Position numbers and translations under genes: made by a program. Below the pieces are notes generated by a model. That model did not search any database. It saw nothing but the letters and a program-made list of their open reading frames with translations, and had not been told where the DNA came from. From an uncultured Verrucomicrobiota bacterium (GTDB lineage Bacteria > Verrucomicrobiota > Verrucomicrobiia > Limisphaerales > UBA9464), in assembly GCA_903922605.1 (NCBI GenBank), contig CAIXUG010000076.1:1-48352 (forward strand): DNA of 48,352 bases, in the 5' to 3' direction. Below, piece by piece: positions 2,369 through 18,843 of the stretch (within the stretch, counting starts at the first letter, position 1; each line of letters opens with the position of its first letter).

Positions 2369-4549
2369 TCAGGGTTTGGGGCTGGGGTTGGAGGGGAGTG
2401 CCGGGACCGCCACGGGGGCGGCGACCGCCGCCTTCGGCGCGGACTTGATGTCGGTGCCGAGGCGCTGCAGGTAGGCGATGAGGCCGATGATCTCGGAATC
2501 GGGCGGGGCGTTGCTGACCGAGCCGATGCGGAGGTTCGCGACCACCTTGGCCGCCTGGGCGGCGAGGTCGGCCTGCGCGGGACCGTTCTCAAAACCGGCC
2601 GGATAGGGCACGCCGACCTTGCGGAGCGCGGAGAGCCGGGCCGGCAGGTCGTTGGTCGCCAGGGTCTGGGTCAGCAGCCAGGGATACGCCGGCATGATGG
2701 AGCCGGGGGAGGTGGAGCGCGGGTTCTCCAGGTGCTTGAAATGCCAGGCGTCGGGATACTTGCCACCCACGCGGTGCAGGTCGGGCCCGGTGCGTTTGGA
2801 ACCCCAGAGGAAGGGGTGGTCGAAGACGAACTCACCGGCCTTGGAATATTCGCCGTAGCGCTCGGTCTCGGAGCGGAGCGGCCGGATCATCTGCGAGTGG
2901 CAGCCCACGCACCCCTCGCGGATGTAGAGGTCGCGCCCGAGCACCTCCAGGGGTGTGTAGGGCTTCACGCTGGAGATGGTCGGGACGTTGTTCTTGATGA
3001 GGAACATCGGGACCATCTCGACCACACCGCCGATGGCGATCGCCACCACGGCGAGCACAGTGAGGAGGATCGGCTTGGATTCGAGCCAGCGGTGGCCCTT
3101 TTCCTTCGGGGCGCCGGCGTCATCGGAGATCGCGGCGGCCTGGGCTTCCGTATCGGGCTCGAACGAGCCGCCCTTGGCGGTGCGGTACAGGTTGTAGGCG
3201 CACATGATCGTGCCAAGGATGTAGAGCGAGCCGCCGATGGCGCGCAGGCGATAGAGCGGGACGATCTGGAGCACCGTCTCGAGGAAGTTCGGGTATTGGA
3301 GGAAGCCGTCCTTGGTGAACTGCTTCCACATCAGGCCCTGGGTCAGGCCGGAGCAGTACATCGGGATCACGTAGAACATGATGCCCAGCAGCCCGAGCCA
3401 GAAGTGCCAGTTGGCGAGCTTCACCGAGTACAGCTGCGTACGGTACAGGCGCGGGAAGAGGTAGTAAAGCACCGAGAACGTCAGGAAGCCGTTCCAGCCG
3501 AGCGCACCCGTATGGACGTGCGCGATGGTCCAGTCGGTGTAGTGCGAGAGCGAGTTCACCGACTTGATCGCGAGCATCGGGCCCTCGAGCGTGGCCATGC
3601 CGTAGGCCGTGACCGCCACCACCATGAACTTGAGCACGGGGTCCTGGCGGACCTTGTCCCAGGCGCCGCGCAGGGTGAGCAGGCCGTTCAGCATGCCGCC
3701 CCAGGAGGGCGCGATGAGCATGAGGCTGAACACCATGCCGAGCGACTGCGCCCAGTCAGGCAGGGCGGTGTAGAGCAGATGGTGCGGCCCGGCCCAGATG
3801 TAGATGAAGATCAGCGCCCAGAAGTGGATGATCGAGAGCCGGTAGCTGAACACCGGGCGGTTCGCGGCCTTGGGCAGGAAGTAGTACATCATGCCCAGGT
3901 AGGGCGTGGTGAGGAAGAACGCGACGGCGTTATGCCCGTACCACCACTGCACCAGCGCGTCCTGCACGCCGGCATACATGGAGTAGCTCTTGAACGGCCC
4001 GGCGGGCATCTCCATCGAGTTCACGATGTGCAGCACCGCGACGGTGAGCGCCGTGGCGATGTAGAACCAGATGGCGACGTACAGGTGCTTCTCCCGGCGG
4101 CGGATGATCGTGCCGAGCAGGTTCACCGTGAACGCCACCCAGATGAGCGCGATGGCAATGTCAATCGGCCACTCCAGCTCCGCATACTCCTTGCTGGTGG
4201 TGAGGCCGAGCGGAAGCGTGATGGCCGCCGAGACGATGATCGCGTTCCACCCCCAGAAATTGATCCAGCTCAGCCTGTCGCTGAACATGCGCGCCTTGCA
4301 CAGCCGCTGCAGCGAATAGTAGATGCCCATGAACATGCCGTTGCCCACAAACGCGAAGATCACGGCGTTGGTGTGCAGCGGCCGCAGCCGTCCGAAGGAC
4401 ACGAACTGCAGGTTCAGGTTGGCGGCGGGCCAGAACAGCTGGACGGCGGCGAGCAGGCCGGCGCACATGCCGACCAGGCCCCAGATGATCGTGGCGATGG
4501 CAAAGGCCCGCACGATCCGGTTGTCGTATTTGAATGTTTCTATCTTCAT
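2369..4549 (-). CDS. ccoNO: cbb3 oxidase fused subunits I and II (CcoN-CcoO)
   Basis: A 726-residue fusion. Residues 1-460 are CcoN, the catalytic heme-copper subunit, with the complete ligand set: H59 and H346 for the low-spin heme, H206 and H256/H257 for CuB, H344 for the high-spin heme, and active-site Y260 in GPHHLLY. A linker and one helix lead to CcoO (about 525-726) with heme motif CVGCH (547-551) and axial Met in PGSIMPAYPW (M619). It reduces O2 to water with high affinity while pumping protons. N-O fusions are known in several phyla including Bacteroidota. It sits two bases after ccoS and just before ccoQ. Confidence 0.95.
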   Translation of the reverse strand: MKIETFKYDNRIVRAFAIATIIWGLVGMCAGLLAAVQLFWPAANLNLQFVSFGRLRPLHTNAVIFAFVGNGMFMGIYYSLQRLCKARMFSDRLSWINFWGWNAIIVSAAITLPLGLTTSKEYAELEWPIDIAIALIWVAFTVNLLGTIIRRREKHLYVAIWFYIATALTVAVLHIVNSMEMPAGPFKSYSMYAGVQDALVQWWYGHNAVAFFLTTPYLGMMYYFLPKAANRPVFSYRLSIIHFWALIFIYIWAGPHHLLYTALPDWAQSLGMVFSLMLIAPSWGGMLNGLLTLRGAWDKVRQDPVLKFMVVAVTAYGMATLEGPMLAIKSVNSLSHYTDWTIAHVHTGALGWNGFLTFSVLYYLFPRLYRTQLYSVKLANWHFWLGLLGIMFYVIPMYCSGLTQGLMWKQFTKDGFLQYPNFLETVLQIVPLYRLRAIGGSLYILGTIMCAYNLYRTAKGGSFEPDTEAQAAAISDDAGAPKEKGHRWLESKPILLTVLAVVAIAIGGVVEMVPMFLIKNNVPTISSVKPYTPLEVLGRDLYIREGCVGCHSQMIRPLRSETERYGEYSKAGEFVFDHPFLWGSKRTGPDLHRVGGKYPDAWHFKHLENPRSTSPGSIMPAYPWLLTQTLATNDLPARLSALRKVGVPYPAGFENGPAQADLAAQAAKVVANLRIGSVSNAPPDSEIIGLIAYLQRLGTDIKSAPKAAVAAPVAVPALPSNPSPKP

Positions 4550-7718: not shown

Positions 7719-8354
7719 ATGTCCTTCCTTTTCCCAAAGTGGGTGAACACGCTGCCGCTGAAGGTGGCGGTGGGTGCCGTGCTGGTCGCAACTGCGGCCA
7801 CTGCGGGCATCACCTATTACATGACGCCAAAGTGGACGCGCGTGGGCTACACGCCCAAGCAGCCGATCGCGTTTTCGCACAAGATCCACAATGAGCAGCT
7901 CGGCATCGACTGCCGTTACTGCCACTCGGCGGTGGAACGGTCCTGGTTCTCGAACATCCCGGCCAGCTCGACCTGCATGAACTGCCACAGCCTCGTCCTG
8001 AAGGACGACCCGAAGCTGGAGCTCGTGCGTAACTCCTACAAGACCGGCCAGCCCATTCCTTGGGTGCAGGTCCACAAGGTGCCGGACTACGTCTATTTCA
8101 ACCACTCGGTCCATGTGAACCGCGGCATCAGTTGCGTCCACTGCCACGGCCAGATCAACCACATGGACGAGGTGCAGCACGCCAAGCCGCTGTCCATGGG
8201 CTTCTGCCTGGATTGCCACCGCGCCCCCGAGGAAAAGATTCGCCCCGTCGAGCTGGTCACCCAGCTCGATTGGAAAGGCGTCGTGGACGGCAAAAAGCTG
8301 GTGCATGACTGGAACGTGAAGCCCGGCCAGAGCTGCTCGACCTGCCACCGATGA
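7719..8354 (+). CDS. actA: Alternative complex III pentaheme cytochrome c ActA
   Basis: A 211-residue protein with one N-terminal membrane helix (about 10-33) and five CXXCH heme sites in order: CRYCH, CMNCH, CVHCH, CLDCH and CSTCH. Five hemes plus an N-terminal anchor, directly followed by actB, is the ActA signature. It takes electrons from the quinol site through the ActB iron-sulfur clusters towards the monoheme cytochrome. The last codons overlap the actB start (ATGA). No strong Shine-Dalgarno is seen. Confidence 0.94.
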   Translation: MSFLFPKWVNTLPLKVAVGAVLVATAATAGITYYMTPKWTRVGYTPKQPIAFSHKIHNEQLGIDCRYCHSAVERSWFSNIPASSTCMNCHSLVLKDDPKLELVRNSYKTGQPIPWVQVHKVPDYVYFNHSVHVNRGISCVHCHGQINHMDEVQHAKPLSMGFCLDCHRAPEEKIRPVELVTQLDWKGVVDGKKLVHDWNVKPGQSCSTCHR

Positions 8355-11300
8355 AGACCATTCCCCCTGTTTGCCCCGAGCCGGAAGTCGGCCCGAAATA
8401 CTGGCGTTCCCTCGACCAGCTCGCCGAACGTCCCGAATTCCGCCAGTGGCTCGACCAGGAGTTCCCCTCCGGTGCCAGCATCGCCCCCGAGGGCGAATCC
8501 CGCCGCAACTGGATGAAGCTGATGTCCGCCAGCTTCCTGCTGGCCGGCCTCGGTGGCTTCGCCGCCGGCTGCCGCCGCCCGGAATCCACGCTGACCCCCT
8601 TCGCCAAGCAGCCCGAGAATTACGTCCACGGCGGCTGGCAGTACTTCGCGACCAGCTTCCCGAGCCGCGGCAGCGCCCAGGCGCTCGTGGTGAAGTCGAG
8701 CGACGGCCGGCCGACCAAGATCGAGGGCAACCCGCTGCACCCCGACAGCAACGGATCGACCGACATCACCGCGCAGGGCACCCTGCTGAACCTCTACGAT
8801 CCCGACCGCGCGTACCGTCACACCTTCCAGGGCAGCGACGTGAAGGCCGAGAAGGTCGTGGATTTCCTCTCCGCGACCGCCAAGAAGTTCGCCGCCAACG
8901 GCGGTGAAGGCCTCGCGATCCTCGCCGAGCGCAACTCCTCACCCTCCCGCGCGGCGTTGCAGGCCAAGTTTGCCGACAAGCTGCCGAAGGCGAAGTGGTT
9001 CCTGTACGAGCCGGTGGATTTCGCCATCGCCAGCCAGGCGGCCACCCTTGCGTTCGGCGCGAGCGTCACCCCGCACGTCCATTTTGAGAAGGCGAAGCGC
9101 ATCCTGTCACTGGACTGCGATTTCCTGAGCACCGACGCCGACACGGCGCACCACATCCGTGGTTTCGCCAAGGGCCGCAAGCCCGGTGACGGCATGAGCC
9201 GCCTCTACATGGTGGAGTCGCTCCAGTCGCTGACCGGCGGCAGTGCCGATCACCGCCTGCGGGTGCGTCCGACCGATCTCGTCAAGGTGGCCGCCCACAT
9301 CGGCAGCTTCCTGGCGGACGGTGAACTCGGCGTTTCGCTCAAGGCCCTCGCCAAGGGTTCGCCCGCCTCGGACAAATGGGCTTCGGAATGCGCCAAGGAT
9401 CTCGCCGCGCACAAAGGCGAGGCCGTGGTGGTGGCGGGCTATGGCCAGCCGCTTGCGGTCCACCTGATCGCCAATGCGCTCAACTCCCTGCTTGGAGGGG
9501 TCGGACCGGTGGTCCAGCTGCTGCCGAACCCGGAAAAGAGCGACGGCGGCATCGCCGAGGCGGTCGCCGCCCTGAACGGCGGGCTCGACACGCTGCTCAT
9601 CCTGGGTGGCAACCCGGCGTACAACGCCCCGGCCGATCTCGATTTCATCGCCGCCGCCAAGAAGGCCATGACGGTGGTCCGCCTCGGTTACTACGAGGAC
9701 GAAACCGCGCTGCTTTCGACCTGGCACCTGGCCGGTGCGCACTTCCTCGAATCATGGGGCGATGCCCGCACGAGCGACGGCACGGTGGTGCCCGTCCAGC
9801 CGCTCATCGAGCCGTTGTTTGGCGGCCTGACCGAGCTGGAAGTGCTGGCCCGCCTGCTGGGTGAGGCCAAGGCCAGCCCCTACGAGATCGTCCGCGCGAC
9901 CTTCACGGGCGACGACCAGGCCTGGAAGCAGTTCCTGCACGACGGTTATCTCAAGGACAGCGCCTACCAGCCCGTTTCGCCTTCGTTCGACGGCGGTGCG
10001 GTCGCGCAGGCGCTCGCCGGCTTCAAGCCGCTCGCTGCGTCCGGCTACGACGTCGTGCTCTATCGCGACGCCAAGGTGGATGACGGCCGCTACGCGAACA
10101 ACGGCTGGCTGCAGGAAGTGCCGGACCCCGTGACCAAGCTGGTCTGGGGCAACGCGGTCATCGTTTCGCCCGCGACGGGCAAGAAGCTGGGCATCTCCGA
10201 GCAGACCGGTGACGGCCGCAAGGACACGAGCGATAACGCCCACGCGCACGACGGCCAGTTCAAGAACCAGGTGATCAAGGTCACGATCGGTGGCCGTTCG
10301 GTCGAGGGCATCGCCTGGGTTCAGCCCGGTTTTGCGGACAACACCGTCGGTCTCGCCCTCGGCTACGGTCGCAGCAAGGTCGGCCGCGTCGGCACGGGCT
10401 GCGGCTTTGACGCCTACGTCTTCTACGGCACCGCCGGCGGCCACATCGCGACCGGCGCGAAACTCGAGCCGGTCTTCAAGAAGGATTACCTGGCCACGAC
10501 CCAGGAGCACGGCCTGATGGAAGGCCGCCCGGTCATTCGCGAGGCCAATCTCGACCAGTTCAAGACGAAGCCCGACTTCGTCAACTACATGGACCTGGAT
10601 GCGCATCTGCCGCATTACGTCCCGTACAACGAAGACGGTTCGATCAAGAACATCTACACGCATCCCTACAAGAGCCACCCGGAGACGAAGTCCGAGGTTC
10701 ACCAGTGGGGCATGACGGTGGATCTGGCCTCCTGCGTCGGCTGTGCGGCCTGCGTGATCGCCTGCCAGGCGGAGAACAACATCCCCATCGTCGGCAAGGA
10801 CCAGGTCATGCGCGGCCGTGAGATGCACTGGATCCGCATCGACCGCTACTACAGCCACGACGAGGCGCTGGAAATCACCAAGGAACACGCCGCCGCCGAC
10901 CCGCAGATGGCGGTGCAGCCGATGTTCTGCCAGCACTGCGAAAGCGCGCCGTGCGAGAGCGTCTGCCCGGTCAACGCCACCGTCCACGACGAGGAAGGCC
11001 TCAACGTGATGGCCTACAACCGCTGCATCGGCACACGGTACTGCGCCAACAACTGCCCGTTCAAGGTCCGGCGCTTCAACTTCTTTGACTTCAACAAGCG
11101 CGAGACCGACTACGCCAAGGTCCAGGGCCAGTTCTTCCTGAACACCGGCAATCTCTACAAGGGGCCCACGGCGGAGAACCGCAACGAGGCCCCGAACTGG
11201 GAAATCATCAAGCTGGTCAAGAATCCCGACGTCTCGGTCCGCATGCGCGGCGTCATGGAGAAGTGCACATTCTGCGTGCAGCGCATCGAGCAGGCAAAGA

Positions 11301-11677
11301 TCGCCCAGAAGGGCATCGCCCGCGACAGCGCGAACGTGCGTGTGCCGGACGGCGGCATCAAGACCGCCTGCCAGCAGGCCTGCCCGGCCGAGGCGATCAC
11401 CTTCGGCAACCTGCTCGATCCCGAGAGCGCGGTGTCGAAGCTGAAGAGGGATCCGCGCAACTACACGGTGCTCGGCTTCCTCGACATCAGGCCGCGCGTC
11501 ACCTACCTGGCGCGCATCCGCAACCCGAACCCGGCCATGCCCGACGCGAAGACCACGCCGGATTCGATCCGCGACTACGAGAAGTTCCGCCACGAGAACC
11601 CCTTTACCGATGAATCCGGCCACGGCCACGAAGGCCAACACGCGGCGGTTCCCGTCGCGCCGAAAGGAGCAGCATAA
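8351..11677 (+). CDS. actB: Alternative complex III molybdopterin-like/iron-sulfur subunit ActB
   Basis: A 1108-residue protein. After about 50 residues comes a twin-arginine-like segment (RR at 51-52, hydrophobic run to about 73), then GFAAGC resembling a lipobox. Residues about 80-770 form the molybdopterin-oxidoreductase-like domain, which lacks the cofactor in known ActB proteins. The C-terminal ferredoxin part has [11 protein letters not shown] (from 795), [14 protein letters not shown] (from 860), [19 protein letters not shown] and CQQACP. It is the large periplasmic subunit passing electrons to ActA. It overlaps actA by four bases and actC by one (TAATG). Confidence 0.94.
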
Positions 11678-13161
11678 TGGGTAACGCCGCCTCCATACCC
11701 GCTTCCGCCGTCGCTGGCAAAAAGCACGACCACGATCACTCGGCCCCGCCGAAAATCGTGGCGGTGGACTGCCCCAAGGAGCTCGAGCGCGAACCGCTCG
11801 TCCTGAACGGGCGTTCCTTCCACTGGATCACCAACCGGATCGCCAACGTCTGCGAGGACGACATGCCGGCCTGGTGGTGGCCCGCGTTCATCATCAGCGC
11901 GGGCGTGATGGGGATGATGTTCTCCCTGCTGGCCTACCTCGTCTCCACGGGCGTGGGTGTGTGGGGTCTGAACAATCCCGCCGCCTGGGCGTGGGACATC
12001 ACGAACTTCGTCTTCTGGATCGGCATCGGCCACGCCGGCACGCTGATCTCGGCGGTGCTCTTCCTGCTCCGGCAGAAGTGGCGGACGTCGATCAACCGCT
12101 CTGCGGAGGCCATGACCCTGTTCGCCGTGGCCTGCGCCGGCATCTTCCCGGTGTTCCACACCGGCCGGGTCTGGTTTGCGCTCACGCCGGGCTACCTGAT
12201 CCCGATGCCGAACTTCAACTACATCTGGCCGCAGTTCCGCTCGCCGCTGCTGTGGGACGTGTTCGCGGTCTCGACCTACGGCACGGTCTCGTTGATCTTC
12301 TGGTATGTCGGCCTGATTCCCGACCTTGCGACCCTGCGCGACCGCGCCCGGAACAAGGTCCGCGGCTTCTTCTACGGCCTCTTCTCGCTCGGCTGGACCG
12401 GTTCGAACCGCCACTGGAGCAACTATGAGAAGGCCTACATGATCTTCGCCGGCATCAGCACGCCGCTGGTGCTCTCCGTGCACTCGATCGTGTCGTTCGA
12501 CTTCGCCGTGTCCAACGTCCCCGGCTGGCACACGACCATCTTCCCGCCCTACTTCGTCGCCGGCGCGATCTTCTCCGGCTTCGGCATGGTGCTCACGCTC
12601 CTGGTGCCGATGCGCACGCTGTTCAAGCTGGAGGACATCGTCACCGTCCGGCACATCGAGCTGATGTGCAAGGTCATCCTCGCGACGGGTTCCATCGTTG
12701 GCTACGCCTACGGCATGGAGTTCTTCATCGCGTGGTACGGCGGCAGCCCCTACGAGCTGTACGCCTTCAAGAACCGCGCGTTCGGCCCCTACTGGTGGGC
12801 CTACTGGAGCATGATCACCTGCAACGTGATCAGCCCGCACTTCTTCTGGTTCAAGTGGTGCCGCTCCAACATGGTGTTCGTCTTCCTCGCCTCCATTGTC
12901 GTGAACATCGGCATGTGGTTCGAGCGGTTCGTCATCATTGTGACGTCGCTGCACCGCGACTACCTGCCCGCGAGCTGGGGCTACTTCACGCCGACCTGGG
13001 TGGATGTGTGCACCTTCATCGGCAGCTTCGGCCTCTTCATGACGCTGTTCCTGCTGTTCATCCGCTATCTGCCGGCCATTGCCATGTCGGAAGTGAAGGG
13101 CGTGACGCCGCAGGCGGATCCGCACCATCCGCTGGGTGGGGCGAAAGGAGGGCACCACTGA
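11677..13161 (+). CDS. actC: Alternative complex III integral membrane subunit ActC (NrfD-like)
   Basis: A 494-residue polytopic membrane protein of the NrfD/PsrC type. A His-rich soluble N-terminus ([11 protein letters not shown]) is followed by [18 protein letters not shown], typical of ActC, and about ten hydrophobic segments including [29 protein letters not shown] split over two helices. It forms the quinol-binding and proposed proton-translocating half of the complex, paired with ActF. It is translationally coupled to both neighbours (TAATG at its start, TGATG at its end). Confidence 0.94.
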
Positions 13162-13694
13162 TGAGCGCCACCGCCAAAACCTACGGGCTGCTGGCCCAGT
13201 TTGACACGGCTGCCGGAATTTTCGAGGCCGCCCTCAAGGTCCGCGACGCGGGCTACAAGAAATGGGACGTCTTCACGCCGTTCCCGATCCACGGGATGGA
13301 CGAGGCCATGGGGCTGAAAAACTCCAAGGTCGGCTATTTCACCATCTGCGGCGGGGTCACCGGCTTCTTCACGGGCATGACCATGATCTGGTTCATGAAC
13401 ATGTTCGACTACGGCCTGGTGGTCGGCGGCAAGCCGCTGTTCACGCCGCTGTTCGCCTTCCCGGTGAGCTACGAGCTGACGATCCTGCTCAGCGCGTTTG
13501 CGACGCTCTTCGGCATGCTGGTGCTGAACCGGCTGCCCAAGCTCTACAACCCGCTCTTCAAGGTGGCGCGCTTCAAGGCGGCCACGGACGACAAGTTTTT
13601 CATCTGCATCGAGGCCGCCGATCCGAAGTTCGCCGAGGCCAAGGCGGTGCTCGAAAACGCCGGTGCCACGGCCATTGATATCGTGGAGGACTGA
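13161..13694 (+). CDS. actD: Alternative complex III subunit ActD (DUF3341)
   Basis: A 177-residue protein with two membrane helices (about 55-80 and 95-120) and a cytoplasmic N-terminus. The motif YGLLAQFDTAAGIFEAALKV, and KWDVFTPFPIHGMDEAMGLKNS after it, is the DUF3341/ActD signature. The start ATG at 13161 overlaps the actC stop by one base and is preceded by GGAGGG. ActD is a small peripheral part of the membrane arm; no redox cofactor is expected. Confidence 0.93.
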   Translation: MSATAKTYGLLAQFDTAAGIFEAALKVRDAGYKKWDVFTPFPIHGMDEAMGLKNSKVGYFTICGGVTGFFTGMTMIWFMNMFDYGLVVGGKPLFTPLFAFPVSYELTILLSAFATLFGMLVLNRLPKLYNPLFKVARFKAATDDKFFICIEAADPKFAEAKAVLENAGATAIDIVED

Positions 13695-13695
13695 A

Positions 13696-14340
13696 ATGCG
13701 CTACTTCCTCGCCCTCTTTGCCCTCGCCGTTCTCGGTGTGATCGGCGTGCTCGGTTTCCGTGGTGACACCTCCCGGCAGTCGCCCCGCATGGCCGAGATC
13801 TATCCCGACATGCTCACGCAGCCGAAGCTGCGGCCGCAGACCACGACCAAGTTCGCCGGTTTCGCCGATGGCGCCTCGTCCCGTCTGTATCCCGCCGGCA
13901 CCGTCGCCCAGACGGTCGGCTTCCGGGACAACACGACCTACCGGGACGACCCCTACAACACCGGCAAGGTGGGCACGGGCACGAACTTCGTCGAGGTGAG
14001 CCCGGTGCCGGTCACTGCGGAGCTCGTCAAACGCGGCCAGGACCGGTTCAACATCTATTGCCAGCCCTGCCATGGTGCCCAGGCCGACGCCGTCGGCGGA
14101 ATGGTCAAGAAAATGGGCGCGACCACGATCGCCAACCTGCAGGACGCCCGCATCGTCAAGATGCCCGACGGCGAAATCTTCAACACCATCAGCAACGGCA
14201 AGAACACGATGATGCCCTATGCCGGGAACGTTCCCGTGGCCGACCGCTGGGCCATCGTGGCCTACGTCCGCGCCCTCCAGCTCAGCCGGCTGGGCGCCAA
14301 GGACGACGTGCCCGCACCCGTGCTCGAAAAGCTGAAATAA
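13696..14340 (+). CDS. actE: Alternative complex III monoheme cytochrome c ActE
   Basis: A 214-residue cytochrome with an N-terminal membrane anchor (about 2-22), a PYNTGKVG region, one heme motif CQPCH near residue 125 and a likely axial Met in NTMMPYAG. It is the electron exit of the complex to soluble cytochrome or oxidase. No lipobox Cys is present, so anchoring is by the helix. The ATG at 13696 is chosen because GGAGGA lies just upstream and it follows the actD stop by one base. Confidence 0.93.
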   Translation: MRYFLALFALAVLGVIGVLGFRGDTSRQSPRMAEIYPDMLTQPKLRPQTTTKFAGFADGASSRLYPAGTVAQTVGFRDNTTYRDDPYNTGKVGTGTNFVEVSPVPVTAELVKRGQDRFNIYCQPCHGAQADAVGGMVKKMGATTIANLQDARIVKMPDGEIFNTISNGKNTMMPYAGNVPVADRWAIVAYVRALQLSRLGAKDDVPAPVLEKLK

Positions 14341-14350
14341 GGCGATACCC

Positions 14351-15643
14351 ATGAACTTCTCCCTGATTTTCAAACGCCTGCTCGCGCTGTTCGCGTGCGC
14401 CGGCCTGCTGACCTTCGCGTCAGCCCGCCTGCTCGCCGCCGAGGCGGAGCACGAGGCCCCCGCCGCCGGTGCCGCCGCCGAGGCGCACATGGAGGGCGCA
14501 GCCGTCCACCACACTGTCGTCAGCGCCGAGGCCAAGGATCCGACCTATCTCGACCAGTTCCTCTATAGCTACCTCACGGCATTCATGTTCTGCCTGAGCA
14601 TCGTGATGGGCGGCATGTTCCTCGTGATCGTGCACTATCTGTTCGACGCCGGCTGGAGCGTGCCGCTCCGGCGCATCAACGAACAGATCGCCTGCCTGAT
14701 CCCCTACCTGGGTGTGGCCGGCATACCGATTCTGATCTTTGGCACGGATGTTTATCCCTGGTGGACGATTGATCCGGCCACCGATCACGCGTTGAACGTG
14801 AAGAAGATCCTCTTCAACCCGGTTTCCTTCCGAGTGCTCTTGGTCCTGATTTTCGGCCTTTGGAGCTTCATGGCGCTGCGTTTCCGCAAATGGTCCATCG
14901 CCCAGGACAAGGATGGGGCGGCGATCTGGTCGCGGAAGTGCCGCTTCCAGGCGGCCTGGGGCATCTACGCCTTTGCCTTCTCGCTGACGGTTGCCGTGTT
15001 CCTGCTGATGAAGTCGCTGATGCACCAGTTCTTCAGCACGATGTACGGTGTCTATTACTTTGCCGGCAGCGTCTGGGTGACGCTGGCGACGGTGTACGGC
15101 ATCATGCGCTTCCTCGAAAAGCGCGAGCTGCGGGGCGTGATCTTCAAGAACACGGTCCACTTTCTCGGCACGCTGTTCTTCGCCTTTACCGTATTCTACG
15201 CGTACATCCACTTCTCCCAGTACTTCCTGATCTGGAACGCGGCCATCCCGGAAGAAACCTTCTGGTACGTGAAGCGTGAGGCCGGCAGCTGGTGGGGCGT
15301 GGGCATGCTGATCCTGTTCGGGCATTTCTTCGTCCCGTTCCTGATTCTGCTCCGCATCGACACCAAGATGAACATGGTCACCATGGGACCCCTGATCGTG
15401 TGGGCCTGGCTGATGCACTACGCGGACATGACCTTCAACGTCATGCCGGTGCTCTACCCGAACGGTCTGCACCTCACGCTGTGGGATCCGATCTGCTGGT
15501 TTGGCCTCGCGGGGGTCTTGGCCTACATCTTCTGGAAGAACTACAAGAAGGCCGCGCCCTATCCGCTGAAGGATCCGCGCCTGAAGGAAGCCCTTAACCA
15601 TCACGAAGTCCCGGCACCCGGTGCCGCCGCCGCCCATCACTGA
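14351..15643 (+). CDS. actF: Alternative complex III integral membrane subunit ActF
   Basis: A 430-residue polytopic protein, the second NrfD-like half of the complex (partner of ActC), with about ten membrane segments from residue 75 onwards. Odd here is the N-terminus: a signal-peptide-like run (about 8-30, ending ARLLAAEA) and an Ala/His/Glu-rich stretch to about residue 60 precede the usual start of the family. The first core segment follows DPTYLDQFLYSYLTAFMFCL. It starts ten bases after actE. Confidence 0.92.
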   Translation: MNFSLIFKRLLALFACAGLLTFASARLLAAEAEHEAPAAGAAAEAHMEGAAVHHTVVSAEAKDPTYLDQFLYSYLTAFMFCLSIVMGGMFLVIVHYLFDAGWSVPLRRINEQIACLIPYLGVAGIPILIFGTDVYPWWTIDPATDHALNVKKILFNPVSFRVLLVLIFGLWSFMALRFRKWSIAQDKDGAAIWSRKCRFQAAWGIYAFAFSLTVAVFLLMKSLMHQFFSTMYGVYYFAGSVWVTLATVYGIMRFLEKRELRGVIFKNTVHFLGTLFFAFTVFYAYIHFSQYFLIWNAAIPEETFWYVKREAGSWWGVGMLILFGHFFVPFLILLRIDTKMNMVTMGPLIVWAWLMHYADMTFNVMPVLYPNGLHLTLWDPICWFGLAGVLAYIFWKNYKKAAPYPLKDPRLKEALNHHEVPAPGAAAAHH

Positions 15644-15651
15644 TTGCTGCC

Positions 15652-16008
15652 ATGAGCGAATCCTCCTGCAGTTCCTGGAAAAAGACCGTCGCGACCGTGG
15701 TCGGCGTGGCCGGCACGCTGGCTGTCTTCGGTGTGCTCACGGTCTATCTTGTCCGCGCCAACAAGCCGGCCCCCGTCGGGGTCGCCCGGGGCGAGGAGCG
15801 CAAGAAGGTCTGGACCGAGCTTCAGAACGCCAATGCGGACATCCTGAACAACTACGGGGTGGTGCGGGCTGACAACGGCACCTACCGCCTGCCGGTTTCG
15901 AAGGCGATGGAAGTGCTGGTGACGGAATGGAAGGACGGCAACGCCGCCGGCCGCGCCAAGCTGCTGCAGCGCCTCGACGCATCGTTGAAGGCTCCGAGCT
16001 ACGAATAA
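15652..16008 (+). CDS. Small single-helix membrane protein between complex III and the shadow oxidase genes
   Basis: A 118-residue protein: short Ser/Cys-rich N-terminus (MSESSCSSW), one membrane helix (about 13-35), and a soluble tail of about 80 residues with KKVWTELQNANADILNNYG and VSKAMEVLVTEWKDGNAAGRAKLLQRL. It has no heme or metal motif. I do not recognise a named family. It lies eight bases after actF and 15 before the CcoN-like gene, so it is probably a subunit or assembly partner of the same complex. The tail length and topology suggest a peripheral scaffold role (inference). Confidence 0.75.
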   Translation: MSESSCSSWKKTVATVVGVAGTLAVFGVLTVYLVRANKPAPVGVARGEERKKVWTELQNANADILNNYGVVRADNGTYRLPVSKAMEVLVTEWKDGNAAGRAKLLQRLDASLKAPSYE

Positions 16009-16023: not shown

Positions 16024-17448
16024 ATGAGCCAATCCTGCTGCAACACCTCCACCGAAGTTCCGGCCGAAGTTTCGGGCCGGGAGCCGGTACTTTTCCTGTT
16101 TGGCAGCGCCATCCTGTGGCTGCTGGCGGGGCTGGCCCTGTCGCTGCTCGCCTCTGCGAAGCTGAACCTGCCCGGCCTGCTGGCCGGCTGCGAATGGTTC
16201 ACCTATGGCCGGGTGGAAGCCGCCGCGCGGACCGCGCTGGTGTTCGGCTTCGCCTCACAACTGGGTTTCGGCGTCGCCCTCTGGCTGCTGACGAAGACCG
16301 GTGCCGCCCGGCTGTCCGGCCCCGGAGTGGCCGTGATCGCGACCATTTTTTGGAACCTTGCCCTGACGCTGGGCGTGGTGGGCATCCTCGCTCTGGGCAG
16401 CAACGGTCTGCCCGGCTTGGAACTGCCCAAGCAGCTGGCCCCGACGCTCGGCCTCGCCATCGGCGTGCTGTCCCTCATCGGTTTTTCTACCTTCGCCAAG
16501 CGGGAGGCCGGCAGTTCCTCACCCACCCAATGGTATCTGATGGCCGCGCTGCTCGCGTTTCCGCTGCTGTATCTCACGGCGCAGGTGACGCTCCTGTTCT
16601 TCCCCTCGCGCGGTGTGGTGCAGGCCATTTCCGCCGGCTGGTTTGGTCAGGGCGTCCTGTTCCTCTGGCTCGCGCCGCTGGCGTTGGCCTCGCTCTACCA
16701 TTTTATTCCTGCCTCCACCGGCGGTGCAGTGCGCTCACCGGCGCTGGCCCCGCTCGGTTTCTGGTCCTGGCTCATCTTCGCGAGCTGGACCGGGGCCGCG
16801 AGCCTGACGGGTGGTCCGGTGCCGGCCTGGGTCATCACCGTCAGCGTGGCTGCCAGCGTATTGCTGCTGATTCCGGTGACGCTCATCGCCGTGAACCTGA
16901 CCATCTGCGGCCCGGCCAAGTGCACGACGACGAAATACTTCGCCCTGCTGGCGTTGGCCGCGTTCACGCTGGGTGGATTCGCCTTCGCGCTGACCTCGCC
17001 GCGCTGCGCCCAGGCGGTGCTGCACTTCACGCAGTTCAACGTCGCGCTGCGCGAGCTGTTCCTCTTTGGCTTTGTCGGCCCTGCACTCTTCGCCGCCTTC
17101 TACGCCATCGTTCCGCAACTGGCCGGTCGCGAATTTCCCTGCCGTCTCTCCCCGAAGGGGCACTTCGCCTTCACCGTGCTCGGCCTTGGCCTGCTGCTCC
17201 TCGCCTCGGGCGTGGGCGGCTGGAAGCAGGGCTGGCTGCTGGCCGATCCGAAGGCCGACTTCGCCGCCGTTTCCGCCGGGCTCAAGCCGTGGCTCTGGCT
17301 GCACACGCTGGCCCTGGCCATCTACGCCTTTGGCCAGCTGGCGGTCGTCGCCAATTCCGTGTGGTTGATTTTCGAATGCGTAAAGCCCCTGCGGCAGCCC
17401 GTGCTGGCGCTGTTCACCGAAACCCGGCCGGCCGTGGCCGGCAAATGA
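16024..17448 (+). CDS. CcoN-like membrane protein lacking all heme-copper ligands
   Basis: A 474-residue protein with about 12 membrane segments. It aligns by eye, largely without gaps in the blocks, to the catalytic CcoN in this same window. GRLRPLHTNA corresponds to GRVEAAARTA (low-spin heme His to A68). WYGHNA corresponds to WFGQGV (CuB His to Q209). GPHHLLY corresponds to GAASLTG (two CuB His to A259/S260, active-site Tyr to G263). YTDWTIAHVHTG corresponds to FTQFNVALRELF (heme His pair to L342 and E344). Flanking fold residues persist, for example HFxxxxLG and SGxxxQG. It therefore cannot bind hemes b/b3 or CuB in the normal way and is probably structural. It is read with actA-F and followed by CcoO-like and cytochrome genes. 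Confidence 0.85.
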   Translation: MSQSCCNTSTEVPAEVSGREPVLFLFGSAILWLLAGLALSLLASAKLNLPGLLAGCEWFTYGRVEAAARTALVFGFASQLGFGVALWLLTKTGAARLSGPGVAVIATIFWNLALTLGVVGILALGSNGLPGLELPKQLAPTLGLAIGVLSLIGFSTFAKREAGSSSPTQWYLMAALLAFPLLYLTAQVTLLFFPSRGVVQAISAGWFGQGVLFLWLAPLALASLYHFIPASTGGAVRSPALAPLGFWSWLIFASWTGAASLTGGPVPAWVITVSVAASVLLLIPVTLIAVNLTICGPAKCTTTKYFALLALAAFTLGGFAFALTSPRCAQAVLHFTQFNVALRELFLFGFVGPALFAAFYAIVPQLAGREFPCRLSPKGHFAFTVLGLGLLLLASGVGGWKQGWLLADPKADFAAVSAGLKPWLWLHTLALAIYAFGQLAVVANSVWLIFECVKPLRQPVLALFTETRPAVAGK

Positions 17449-17452
17449 ACCG

Positions 17453-18109
17453 ATGAACTCCGGTCCGCTCCTCTATTTCGGTCTGGTGGCGACGCTCGCG
17501 GCGTCCTGGTTCGGCTTCGTCGTCGTGCCCCACCAGCAGCTCGGCGCACTCCAGCCCGAGACGGGTGCCAACGCCGCCGGTGTGGAAGTCACCTATCCGG
17601 CCGCCCGCAGCGGCGAGGCCGCGCAGGGCCGGGCCGTTTACCAGTCCCTCGGCTGCGTCTCCTGCCACAGCCAGCAGGTCCGCTCGGAAAACAATGGCAG
17701 CGACCTCGCCCGGGGTTGGGGCCATCGCCGGACCGTGGCGCGGGACTATCTTTTCGACCCGACGCCGCTGCTCGGTGTCAGCCGTCTCGGTCCCGATCTG
17801 GCCAACTACGGCGAACGCCTCGGCACGAATTCCTTTCCAATCACGCGTCTGTACCGTCCGAGCCTCGTCGTGACCAATTCGACCTGTGCGGCGGTTCCCT
17901 TCCTCTTTGAAGAGCGGCCCATCCGCCGCAGCGGTCCTTCCCCCGAAGCCCTCGCCTTGAAAGGTGAAGACGCTCCGGCCGCCGGCAAGGAAGTCGTTCC
18001 CACGCTGCGCGCCCATCAGCTCGCCGCCTACCTGCACAGCCTCGGCACCACCGCCGACCTGCCCGAAGCTCCGCTGCCGCCCGCCGAAGACGCCAACGCC
18101 CCGAAATGA
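17453..18109 (+). CDS. CcoO-like monoheme cytochrome c with Cys in place of axial Met
   Basis: A 218-residue protein with an N-terminal membrane anchor (about 5-25) and a CcoO-type cytochrome domain: GRAVYQSLGCVSCHSQQVRS (heme Cys68/Cys71/His72), RDYLFDPTPLLG and RLGPDLANYGERLG match CcoO of the fused ccoNO gene. The stretch HLENPRSTSPGSIMPAYPWL of CcoO aligns gap-free to RLYRPSLVVTNSTCAAVPFL, putting C145 where the sixth heme ligand Met sits. No Met other than the initiator occurs in the protein, so His/Cys or His/other ligation is expected. It lies four bases after the CcoN-like gene, its presumed partner. Confidence 0.85.
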   Translation: MNSGPLLYFGLVATLAASWFGFVVVPHQQLGALQPETGANAAGVEVTYPAARSGEAAQGRAVYQSLGCVSCHSQQVRSENNGSDLARGWGHRRTVARDYLFDPTPLLGVSRLGPDLANYGERLGTNSFPITRLYRPSLVVTNSTCAAVPFLFEERPIRRSGPSPEALALKGEDAPAAGKEVVPTLRAHQLAAYLHSLGTTADLPEAPLPPAEDANAPK

Positions 18110-18843
18110 GAGCCGAAGCGAACACAATTTTTTCTGTCCGGTCCCGCCGTGGGCAACGCGGTTTCGGGCTGGTGAATTCCTTCCTGCTGTCGGGCGCGGC
18201 GGTCCTGCTCGTCTGGGGCGGGCTCTACGTCGGCAAGTACGGCGGCCGTTTCGACGGTGACGAGTACAGCGAGATTCCGCATGGCCGGCCGGCCAAGGTC
18301 GTGGCCGGTTCGGAAGATCCTAACGCGAAGGTTCTCAAGCTGGGTGCGCGTGTTTTCCAAAACTGCGCCGCCTGCCATCAGGCCGATGGCAATGGTGACC
18401 CCAGCAAGAACGTCCCGCCGCTCGCGGGTTCCGACTGGGTGCTGACGGAATCCCCGAACCGCATCATCCGGATCGTGCTCAACGGTCTGGGCGGGCCGAT
18501 CACCGTCAAGGGTACTCCTTTCAATGGCGGCGCGATGAATCCGTGGCGCAAGACGGCGGACAATCCGTCCGGCCTGACGGTCGAGGAAATCGCCGCCGTG
18601 CTCAGCTACGCCCGCAACACCTGGGGCAACAAGGCCGGCATCATTTCGGTCGATCAGGTCAGCGCCATTGCGAAGGAAACCGAGAAGCGCACCGACCCCT
18701 GGACGCCTGATGAGCTGCTGAAGGTTCCCCTGACCGGTGGCGCGACGGCTTCCGCCGCCCTGACGCCGGATCAGCTGAAGGCCGCCCTCAAGGCCATGCC
18801 GGCCGATGCGCTCGACGCCCTGCTCAAGGACGTGAAGAAGTAG
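18106..18843 (+). CDS. Membrane-anchored monoheme cytochrome c, last gene of complex III operon
   Basis: A 245-residue class I cytochrome c. A basic N-terminus and one membrane helix (about 22-43) precede a heme domain with CAACH (87-91), PPLAGSDW and a likely axial Met in NGGAMNPW. A tail of about 70 residues follows (TPDELLKVPLTGG, TPDQLKAALKAMPADALDALLKDVKK) with no cofactor motif. It overlaps the CcoO-like gene (ATGA). By position it is the CcoP counterpart of the shadow oxidase, though it has no clear CcoP_N helix motif. It may carry electrons from ActE to the cbb3 oxidase. Confidence 0.85.
   Translation: MRAEANTIFSVRSRRGQRGFGLVNSFLLSGAAVLLVWGGLYVGKYGGRFDGDEYSEIPHGRPAKVVAGSEDPNAKVLKLGARVFQNCAACHQADGNGDPSKNVPPLAGSDWVLTESPNRIIRIVLNGLGGPITVKGTPFNGGAMNPWRKTADNPSGLTVEEIAAVLSYARNTWGNKAGIISVDQVSAIAKETEKRTDPWTPDELLKVPLTGGATASAALTPDQLKAALKAMPADALDALLKDVKK

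Follow-up and report, generated by a model that had tools for sequence, protein, structure and literature searches.

A C-type oxidase subunit without heme and copper ligands in the alternative complex III operon of Verrucomicrobiota, probably kept as a non-catalytic scaffold

Introduction

What does a heme-copper oxidase subunit contribute at the end of an alternative complex III (ACIII) operon, once every residue that should hold its metals is gone? The question is raised by a contig of an uncultured Verrucomicrobiota bacterium (GenBank assembly GCA_903922605.1, contig CAIXUG010000076.1, positions 1 to 48,352 of the forward strand); this whole stretch of 48,352 nucleotides is called the window below. 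Behind the complex III genes lie three genes, termed here Nx, Ox and Px, which encode a CcoN-type membrane subunit and two cytochromes c. Nx has lost all of its metal ligands, a state that proved to be common to whole genera and families of the class. Judging from the sequences, we consider it probable that Nx is an oxidase core that, after a recurrent loss of ligands, has been retained in complex III as a non-catalytic scaffold, on which cytochromes would dock. The genes of the module, and the one used for comparison, are as follows.

16024..17448, plus strand: Nx, CcoN-type subunit of 474 amino acids, with the six ligand His and the catalytic Tyr all replaced
17453..18109, plus strand: Ox, CcoO-like monoheme cytochrome, with CxxCH kept at residues 68-72 and the axial Met replaced by Cys145
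18106..18843, plus strand: Px, monoheme cytochrome c, with CxxCH at residues 87-91 and Met144 kept
2369..4549, minus strand: canonical fused CcoN-CcoO with all ligands, outside the module, for comparison

Identity of Nx and Loss of Its Ligands

Nx matched the Pfam family COX1 (PF00115) with an expectation value (E) of 2.6e-32, above the curated cut-off, and the NCBIfam ccoN model with an E of 2.7e-26, far short of that model's equivalog cut-off. The five top solved relatives of the Nx family profile were all cbb3 subunit I chains, which places Nx nearest to the C type. As had been proposed in a first-pass annotation of this DNA, Nx aligns with the active CcoN of the window (22% identity, E = 6e-19), and the CcoN fold was borne out by an AlphaFold2 (AF2) model. 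Twelve long helices were counted in the model (predicted local distance difference test, pLDDT, of 87), which superposes on chain 3mk7_D with a Z of 51 and 1.7 Å over 438 residues; the alignment behind it held 25 sequences, intact homologues among them.

The ligand positions of Nx are occupied by A68, Q209, A259, S260, L342 and E344, exactly the residues given in the first-pass annotation, and all six His that would bind heme b, heme b3 and CuB are missing. The catalytic Tyr of C-type oxidases, which we take to be Y251 along 3mk7_A, was located by count as the Tyr that precedes the His pair by six residues in an intact relative aligned with 3mk7_A; Nx has A253 at this position. The Tyr is indeed lost, as had been claimed, but the residue named for it (G263) was the wrong one, since that column holds a different Tyr and the intact relatives displayed in the alignment have Gly there too. 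With ligands and Tyr missing, Nx would fail to qualify as a catalytic cbb3 oxidase.

Distribution of the Ligandless Form

A homologue of Nx was found in 56 of 58 relatives. Ligand states were read in 128 orthologous loci, belonging to 54 of these 56 relatives (G029 and G051, whose ligand state was not read, were left out) and to 74 more genomes of the class, which were chosen by us from the matches, one to ten per family. Handles such as G158, L113 and f1 are our own labels for genomes, loci or contigs, and families, f1 being the family of the window. Thirty-nine loci are intact (including G122, which is N-truncated and without the first ligand position) and 87 are ligandless, keeping none to two of the six His (47 keep none, 33 one and 7 two); G158 has a single change and G094 is a fragment. 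By family, 43 of 62 are ligandless only, 14 intact only and five mixed: f1 with 17 intact and 17 ligandless loci, f43 with two of each, f46 with three intact and seven ligandless, f57 with two intact and one ligandless, and f50 with one intact and two ligandless in addition to G158. In the window's genus all eight genomes read, the window's included, are ligandless, and the loss is therefore neither chance nor a single-genome artefact. Seven named public contigs (L154 to L160) are all ligandless as well, with act genes in the three checked (L155, L157 and L158).

Nx had also been called a paralogue, a term that has to be dropped: other genera of the family carry a ligand-complete orthologue at the corresponding place in the operon, where it is presumably an active oxidase. 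Two further states were observed. G066 and G143 (L095 and L096, one family) keep the His pair of the low-spin heme b and have lost the active-site His, possibly an intermediate. G158 (L113), a single genome, retains five of the six His and the Tyr, with Arg in place of the first CuB His; this could be an error or a very recent loss.

Association with Alternative Complex III

The order of the window operon is actABCDEF-SMALL-Nx-Ox-Px, and the ActA-ActF gene set with its cofactor motifs is complete. Its remaining genes are listed below.

7719..8354, plus strand: actA, pentaheme cytochrome c subunit of ACIII (five CxxCH; PDB 8k9e_A, E = 7e-59; 6f0k_A, E = 1e-56)
8351..11677, plus strand: actB, iron-sulfur subunit (Fer4 domains; operon position)
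11677..13161, plus strand: actC, NrfD-like membrane subunit (PDB 6f0k_C, E = 4.5e-198)
13161..13694, plus strand: actD (Pfam ActD, E = 3.5e-62)
13696..14340, plus strand: actE, monoheme cytochrome c (Cytochrome_CBB3 domain, one CxxCH; operon position)
14351..15643, plus strand: actF (PDB 6f0k_F, ActF, E = 3e-53)
15652..16008, plus strand: SMALL, small conserved protein of unknown family (homologue in 105 of the 128 loci), with no match in Pfam or NCBIfam

Calculated from the coordinates, the gaps from actF onward (actF/SMALL/Nx/Ox/Px) are 8, 15, 4 and -4 bases. Together with the domain matches and the CxxCH motifs, they agree with the earlier description of a CcoO-like cytochrome and then a monoheme cytochrome c, closely spaced after actF. 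The N-terminus of Px is probably a membrane anchor.

An act gene was present in 123 of the 128 loci, the other five being G026, G058, G087, G094 and G122. Among the genes detected, the order ActE-ActF-SMALL-Nx-Ox-Px is kept in 125 loci, and departs in G047, G194 and G189, where hits may be mis-assigned. Co-occurrence was tallied over one draw of 189 class genomes, from which Nx matches with E above 1e-15 and ActF matches with E above 1e-25 were dropped (G150, with an Nx E of 1.7e-16, passes without exception). Nx and ActF were found together in 132 genomes, Nx alone in one (G122, on a 5.2-kb contig), ActF alone in four (G064, G068, G076 and G086) and neither in 52. With 132 genomes holding both and five holding only one of the two, the linkage of Nx to complex III asserted in the first-pass annotation is upheld. 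At one locus (G087:C1:962473-972207) about 7 kb separate Nx from ActF, which lies upstream of it; the two are not adjacent and therefore have an insertion between them.

Selection and Residue Conservation

Among the matches listed, from relatives and class genomes, no internal stop was found in the Nx frame. The ratio of nonsynonymous to synonymous substitution rates (dN/dS) of ligandless Nx was 0.075 (window and L154), 0.091, 0.075, 0.086 and 0.071 in five f1 pairs; the other ligandless pairs gave 0.077 for g8 (dS saturated), 0.13 and 0.11 for f42 and f44 (dS near 1), and 0.26 for f38. Four intact pairs ranged from 0.03 to 0.13 and a fifth was saturated. Three ActC comparisons of this set with dN above 2 were extraction artefacts and were not used. 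A recent pseudogene was ruled out by the open frames of the matches listed and the low dN/dS. Relatives that keep the His ligands had been put forward earlier as a possible sign of recent decay, and they do occur. Because the ligandless state is nevertheless common to whole genera and families and is accompanied by purifying selection, we speak of conversion rather than decay.

Of 127 positions conserved in intact Nx, 38 are kept in less than 35% of the ligandless rows (truncated G122 being included among the latter) and 34 in at least 80%; 21 of these 34 are Gly, Pro or Trp. New His ligands elsewhere in the protein were ruled out for the window's family, in which the sole column with His in at least 75% of ligandless rows, 380, has His in intact rows too. 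Columns of this kind in other groups lie near 48 (the order), at 191, 260 and 334 (f42), at 68, 380, 444 and 467 (f38/f54) and at 344, 380, 438 and 444 (f44/f61/f63), and partial or altered heme binding is possible in these groups.

Recurrence of the Loss

Trees were made from Nx (129 rows with the ligand columns masked, leaving out the near-copies or fragments G003, G094, G122, G146, G031 and G026), from ActC+ActF (104 rows, without G036) and from Ox+Px (102 rows, without G042 and G170, no Px). Non-intact, in the trees and in the counts of downstream CxxCH frames, other oxidases and cox1 given below, means any pattern other than HHYHHHH, and includes G158 and, where present, G094 and G122. 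The ActC+ActF tree required 16 changes of state, 12 of them forced by starred branches, and the Ox+Px tree 12 changes, six of them forced, and in the latter a single starred clade of 19 unites f1 rows of both states. Clade-wise Nx trees were also made, with one ligandless clade at a time and without outgroups. In these, ligandless f1 was nested within intact f1, the f43 pair joined f43 (94), f50 joined f50 (100), f53 stood beside f50 (98), f46 grouped with its own and related families (100), and a sample of other families of the order stood beside intact f1 (100). A one-residue deletion at the His pair is found in 31 ligandless rows of the order and in no f1 row.

The trees count changes and not their direction; the changes are read as losses because the outgroup rows are intact and a regain of six His and a Tyr is implausible. 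Since the neighbour-gene trees and some of the clade-wise Nx trees place ligandless copies with the intact members of their own families, the loss appears to be recurrent, and the number of losses may be read as at least five or six, perhaps a dozen.

The Accompanying Cytochromes

Ox matched FixO (PF02433) with an E of 2.6e-12 and carries the heme motif CVSCH. At least two open reading frames (ORFs) with CxxCH follow Nx in all 81 non-intact rows that have at least 2.4 kb of flank. Twelve rows in which Ox seemed to lack its heme motif carry it in the full ORFs, and its loss there was ruled out. Px has CxxCH in all aligned rows, and its Met144 is found in 99% of ligandless and 100% of intact rows.

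Proposed Role and Alternatives

According to the scaffold explanation, Nx-Ox-Px would have started out as a functional C-type (cbb3-like) oxidase encoded at the end of the ACIII operon. In many lineages of the class, that of the window among them, the core would then have lost the ligands of both b hemes and of the copper, the Tyr and further residues that intact copies conserve, the protein itself being retained. Ligandless Nx would now be a membrane subunit of complex III that has no catalytic role and to which Ox and especially Px dock; in Px His/Met ligation is kept, and menaquinol electrons would exit complex III via Px to a soluble carrier or to a separate oxidase (aa3 or canonical cbb3). 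From the operon and the co-occurrence we infer that Nx, Ox and Px are physical subunits of complex III; we likewise infer the electron path via Px and the absence of heme b and copper from Nx. A broader proposal is more tentative, and we would place it somewhat short of an even chance: ACIII of this class may be an obligate complex III-oxidase assembly, in which the oxidase half was repeatedly and independently turned into a cofactor-free structural subunit, followed by Met-to-Cys re-ligation of the attached cytochrome in at least four families. If true, a different quinol:cytochrome c oxidoreductase has hitherto been annotated as a high-affinity oxidase.

Several results weigh against the scaffold explanation or against the recurrence of the loss. 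The Met replaced by Cys145 in Ox is presumably the axial heme c ligand of CcoO. Cys takes its place in each of the 17 ligandless rows of f1, the window included, as well as in f38 (three rows), f60 (two) and one f63 row, and His in G071 and G169; the other 62 ligandless rows and all 39 intact rows keep it. The Cys145-type replacement was found solely where Nx is ligandless, and the association of Met loss with ligandless Nx was not significant, with at most four informative independent pairs. Because His/Cys c-type hemes tend toward low potential, Ox may have a structural role in these lineages, with electrons leaving through Px; an Ox heme with Cys or His may sit off the high-potential path, and the Met loss in the window's lineage weakens a simple wiring role for Ox. 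G048 combines a ligandless Nx with a strong bd oxidase hit and has no other heme-copper hit to feed. Filling of the emptied pocket by bulkier side chains was ruled out, the summed volume going down in ligandless f1, f46 and f50 (it is slightly up in ligandless f43, by +245 cubic Å over all columns). As for the trees, the all-row Nx tree requires just four changes, with most ligandless copies lumped together and many of them on long branches, a grouping that we read as long-branch attraction. Among the clade-wise trees, f57 fell beside f67 without support, G231 fell outside f43 when placed singly, and support was weak or moderate for the attachment of f42, f38/f54 and f47, for which the family itself offers no intact row. 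With an outgroup and a simpler model, seven of 14 ligandless sets were pulled to the base (f1 g1/g2/g8, f50, f57, f42, f53, f38/f54 and f47).

The four changes and the pull to the base are what would be expected if two old operon types, ligandless and intact, or their Nx genes, had been exchanged between lineages after about four losses. Such exchange is the weaker alternative to recurrent loss and appears quite improbable, given that both states occur within families in the ActC+ActF and Ox+Px trees, which require 16 and 12 changes, that ligandless Nx of f1, f43 (the pair) and f50 falls with the intact copies of its own family when clades are placed singly without outgroups, and that the His-pair deletion of the order is absent from f1. 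Progressive decay, with Nx under relaxed selection and heading for loss, would explain the longer branches of many ligandless rows, the dN/dS of the f38 pair and the missing Nx hit in four of the 136 class genomes with ActF. This is nevertheless highly improbable and already largely refuted by conservation: the frames among the matches listed are free of stops, the other eight ligandless pairs (0.07-0.13, two with dS saturated or nearly so) resemble the intact ones, and the ligandless state is common to many families.

Purifying selection of this strength could also reflect a new activity of ligandless Nx in place of a passive scaffold, for instance in proton conduction, in binding a quinone or lipid within the emptied pocket, or in assembly or heme delivery. 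The pocket that stays unfilled would fit such an activity, as would the residues Q209 and E/Q344, which four of the five ligandless f1 genera have. We nevertheless hold it to be unlikely: the replacement residues vary among lineages, column 380 of the window's family is His in intact copies too, the other groups have a few His columns of their own, and the prevalence of Gly, Pro and Trp among the well-kept positions looks structural.

Comparison with Known Systems

The C-type (cbb3) oxidase CcoN/CcoO/CcoP shares with the module its fold, the N-O-P order and a CcoO-like CxxCH cytochrome, and the intact orthologues keep the six His and the Tyr. The window differs in having an Nx without any ligand, an Ox without the axial Met, a monoheme Px, and the genes within an act operon. 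ACIII with an adjacent oxidase, like the Flavobacterium ACIII-aa3 supercomplex, follows the same operon logic as the window, according to the passages available on it. According to passages of PMC8498564, which cite Refojo 2010, verrucomicrobial methanotrophs and Opitutaceae have a C-type oxidase next to ACIII, and the association of C-type oxidase genes with ACIII is in this respect already known; the ACIII-adjacent enzyme is treated there as an oxidase, and ligand loss is unmentioned in the passages concerned.

For ligand loss itself, the relevant passages of PMC10715153 describe a deranged COX1-like protein of Acetobacter, in which all metal-binding residues are missing and for which a structural role was proposed. 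It resembles Nx as a ligandless heme-copper subunit I retained in a gene cluster; it stands, however, with CtaB and in another bacterial group, whereas Nx is of the C type, lies in an ACIII operon with its cytochromes kept, and shows a recurrent, class-wide loss. The deranged bc1 complex of acidophilic Acetobacteraceae, treated in the same passages, is a likeness in that the complex is kept, cofactor ligands are lost and a structural role is proposed, but its protein family is unrelated to Nx. In titles and abstract openings, no literature on ligandless C-type subunits beside complex III was found, which is no proof of absence. An oxidase core that was stripped recurrently while its protein stayed in place offers a natural experiment on how a complex III-oxidase assembly is held together. 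The intact and ligandless relatives make the structural versus catalytic role of an oxidase subunit directly testable.

The Methanotroph-like Family

In the methanotroph-like family f42, pmoA was detected in all ten genomes searched, which would assign them to Methylacidiphilaceae. Nx is ligandless in all four genomes read (G070, G087, G105 and G141), each with a cox1 after Px. The cbb3 beside complex III in verrucomicrobial methanotrophs, Methylacidiphilum among them, is counted as a terminal oxidase in the passages concerned of PMC6688271, PMC8498564 and PMC11102522, one of which links it to high oxygen affinity; PMC10205796 names a cbb3 among three terminal oxidases, its place not being stated in the part concerned. 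With four pmoA genomes ligandless, the oxidase and high-affinity inference would fail if the published named strains are the same. A nos cluster within the ACIII genes of Methylacidiphilum caldifontis is also described in part of PMC11102522.

Other Oxidases and Neighbouring Genes

A further heme-copper hit was found in 84 of the 85 non-intact genomes checked (in G047 a contig-end fragment only), G048 having the bd oxidase, and another heme-copper hit in 36 of 38 intact genomes; these counts include fragments. In G065 (f43, 99% complete) the intact Nx is the sole heme-copper oxidase hit and there is no bd oxidase hit, other oxidase kinds not having been searched. In G060 the one heme-copper hit is its intact Nx, and the bd-like hits are weak, the best having an E of 1.9e-17.

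The first-pass annotation had the module couple complex III to the canonical cbb3 encoded divergently next door. This neighbourhood is a local one and does not bear out such coupling: among the matches listed, cbb3 and Nx lie within 15 kb of each other in G000, G002, G004 and G011 only. In G005 and G007, of the window's genus, the two are on different contigs with Nx far from contig ends, and in several other genomes contig ends limit the reading of the distance. In 22 of the 128 loci (17 non-intact and five intact) a same-strand A-type (aa3-type) cox1 follows downstream of Nx at a distance of 1.3 to 2.5 kb; at least 3.7 kb could be inspected in 105 of the 128. Together with the intact orthologues, these cox1 genes make it plausible that an active oxidase is bound to ACIII as a supercomplex. 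Finally, two weak COX1-family frames, G112:C34:30056-31258 (E = 1e-9) and G129:C1:4498533-4499714 (E = 3e-8), each adjoin a stronger COX1-family gene.

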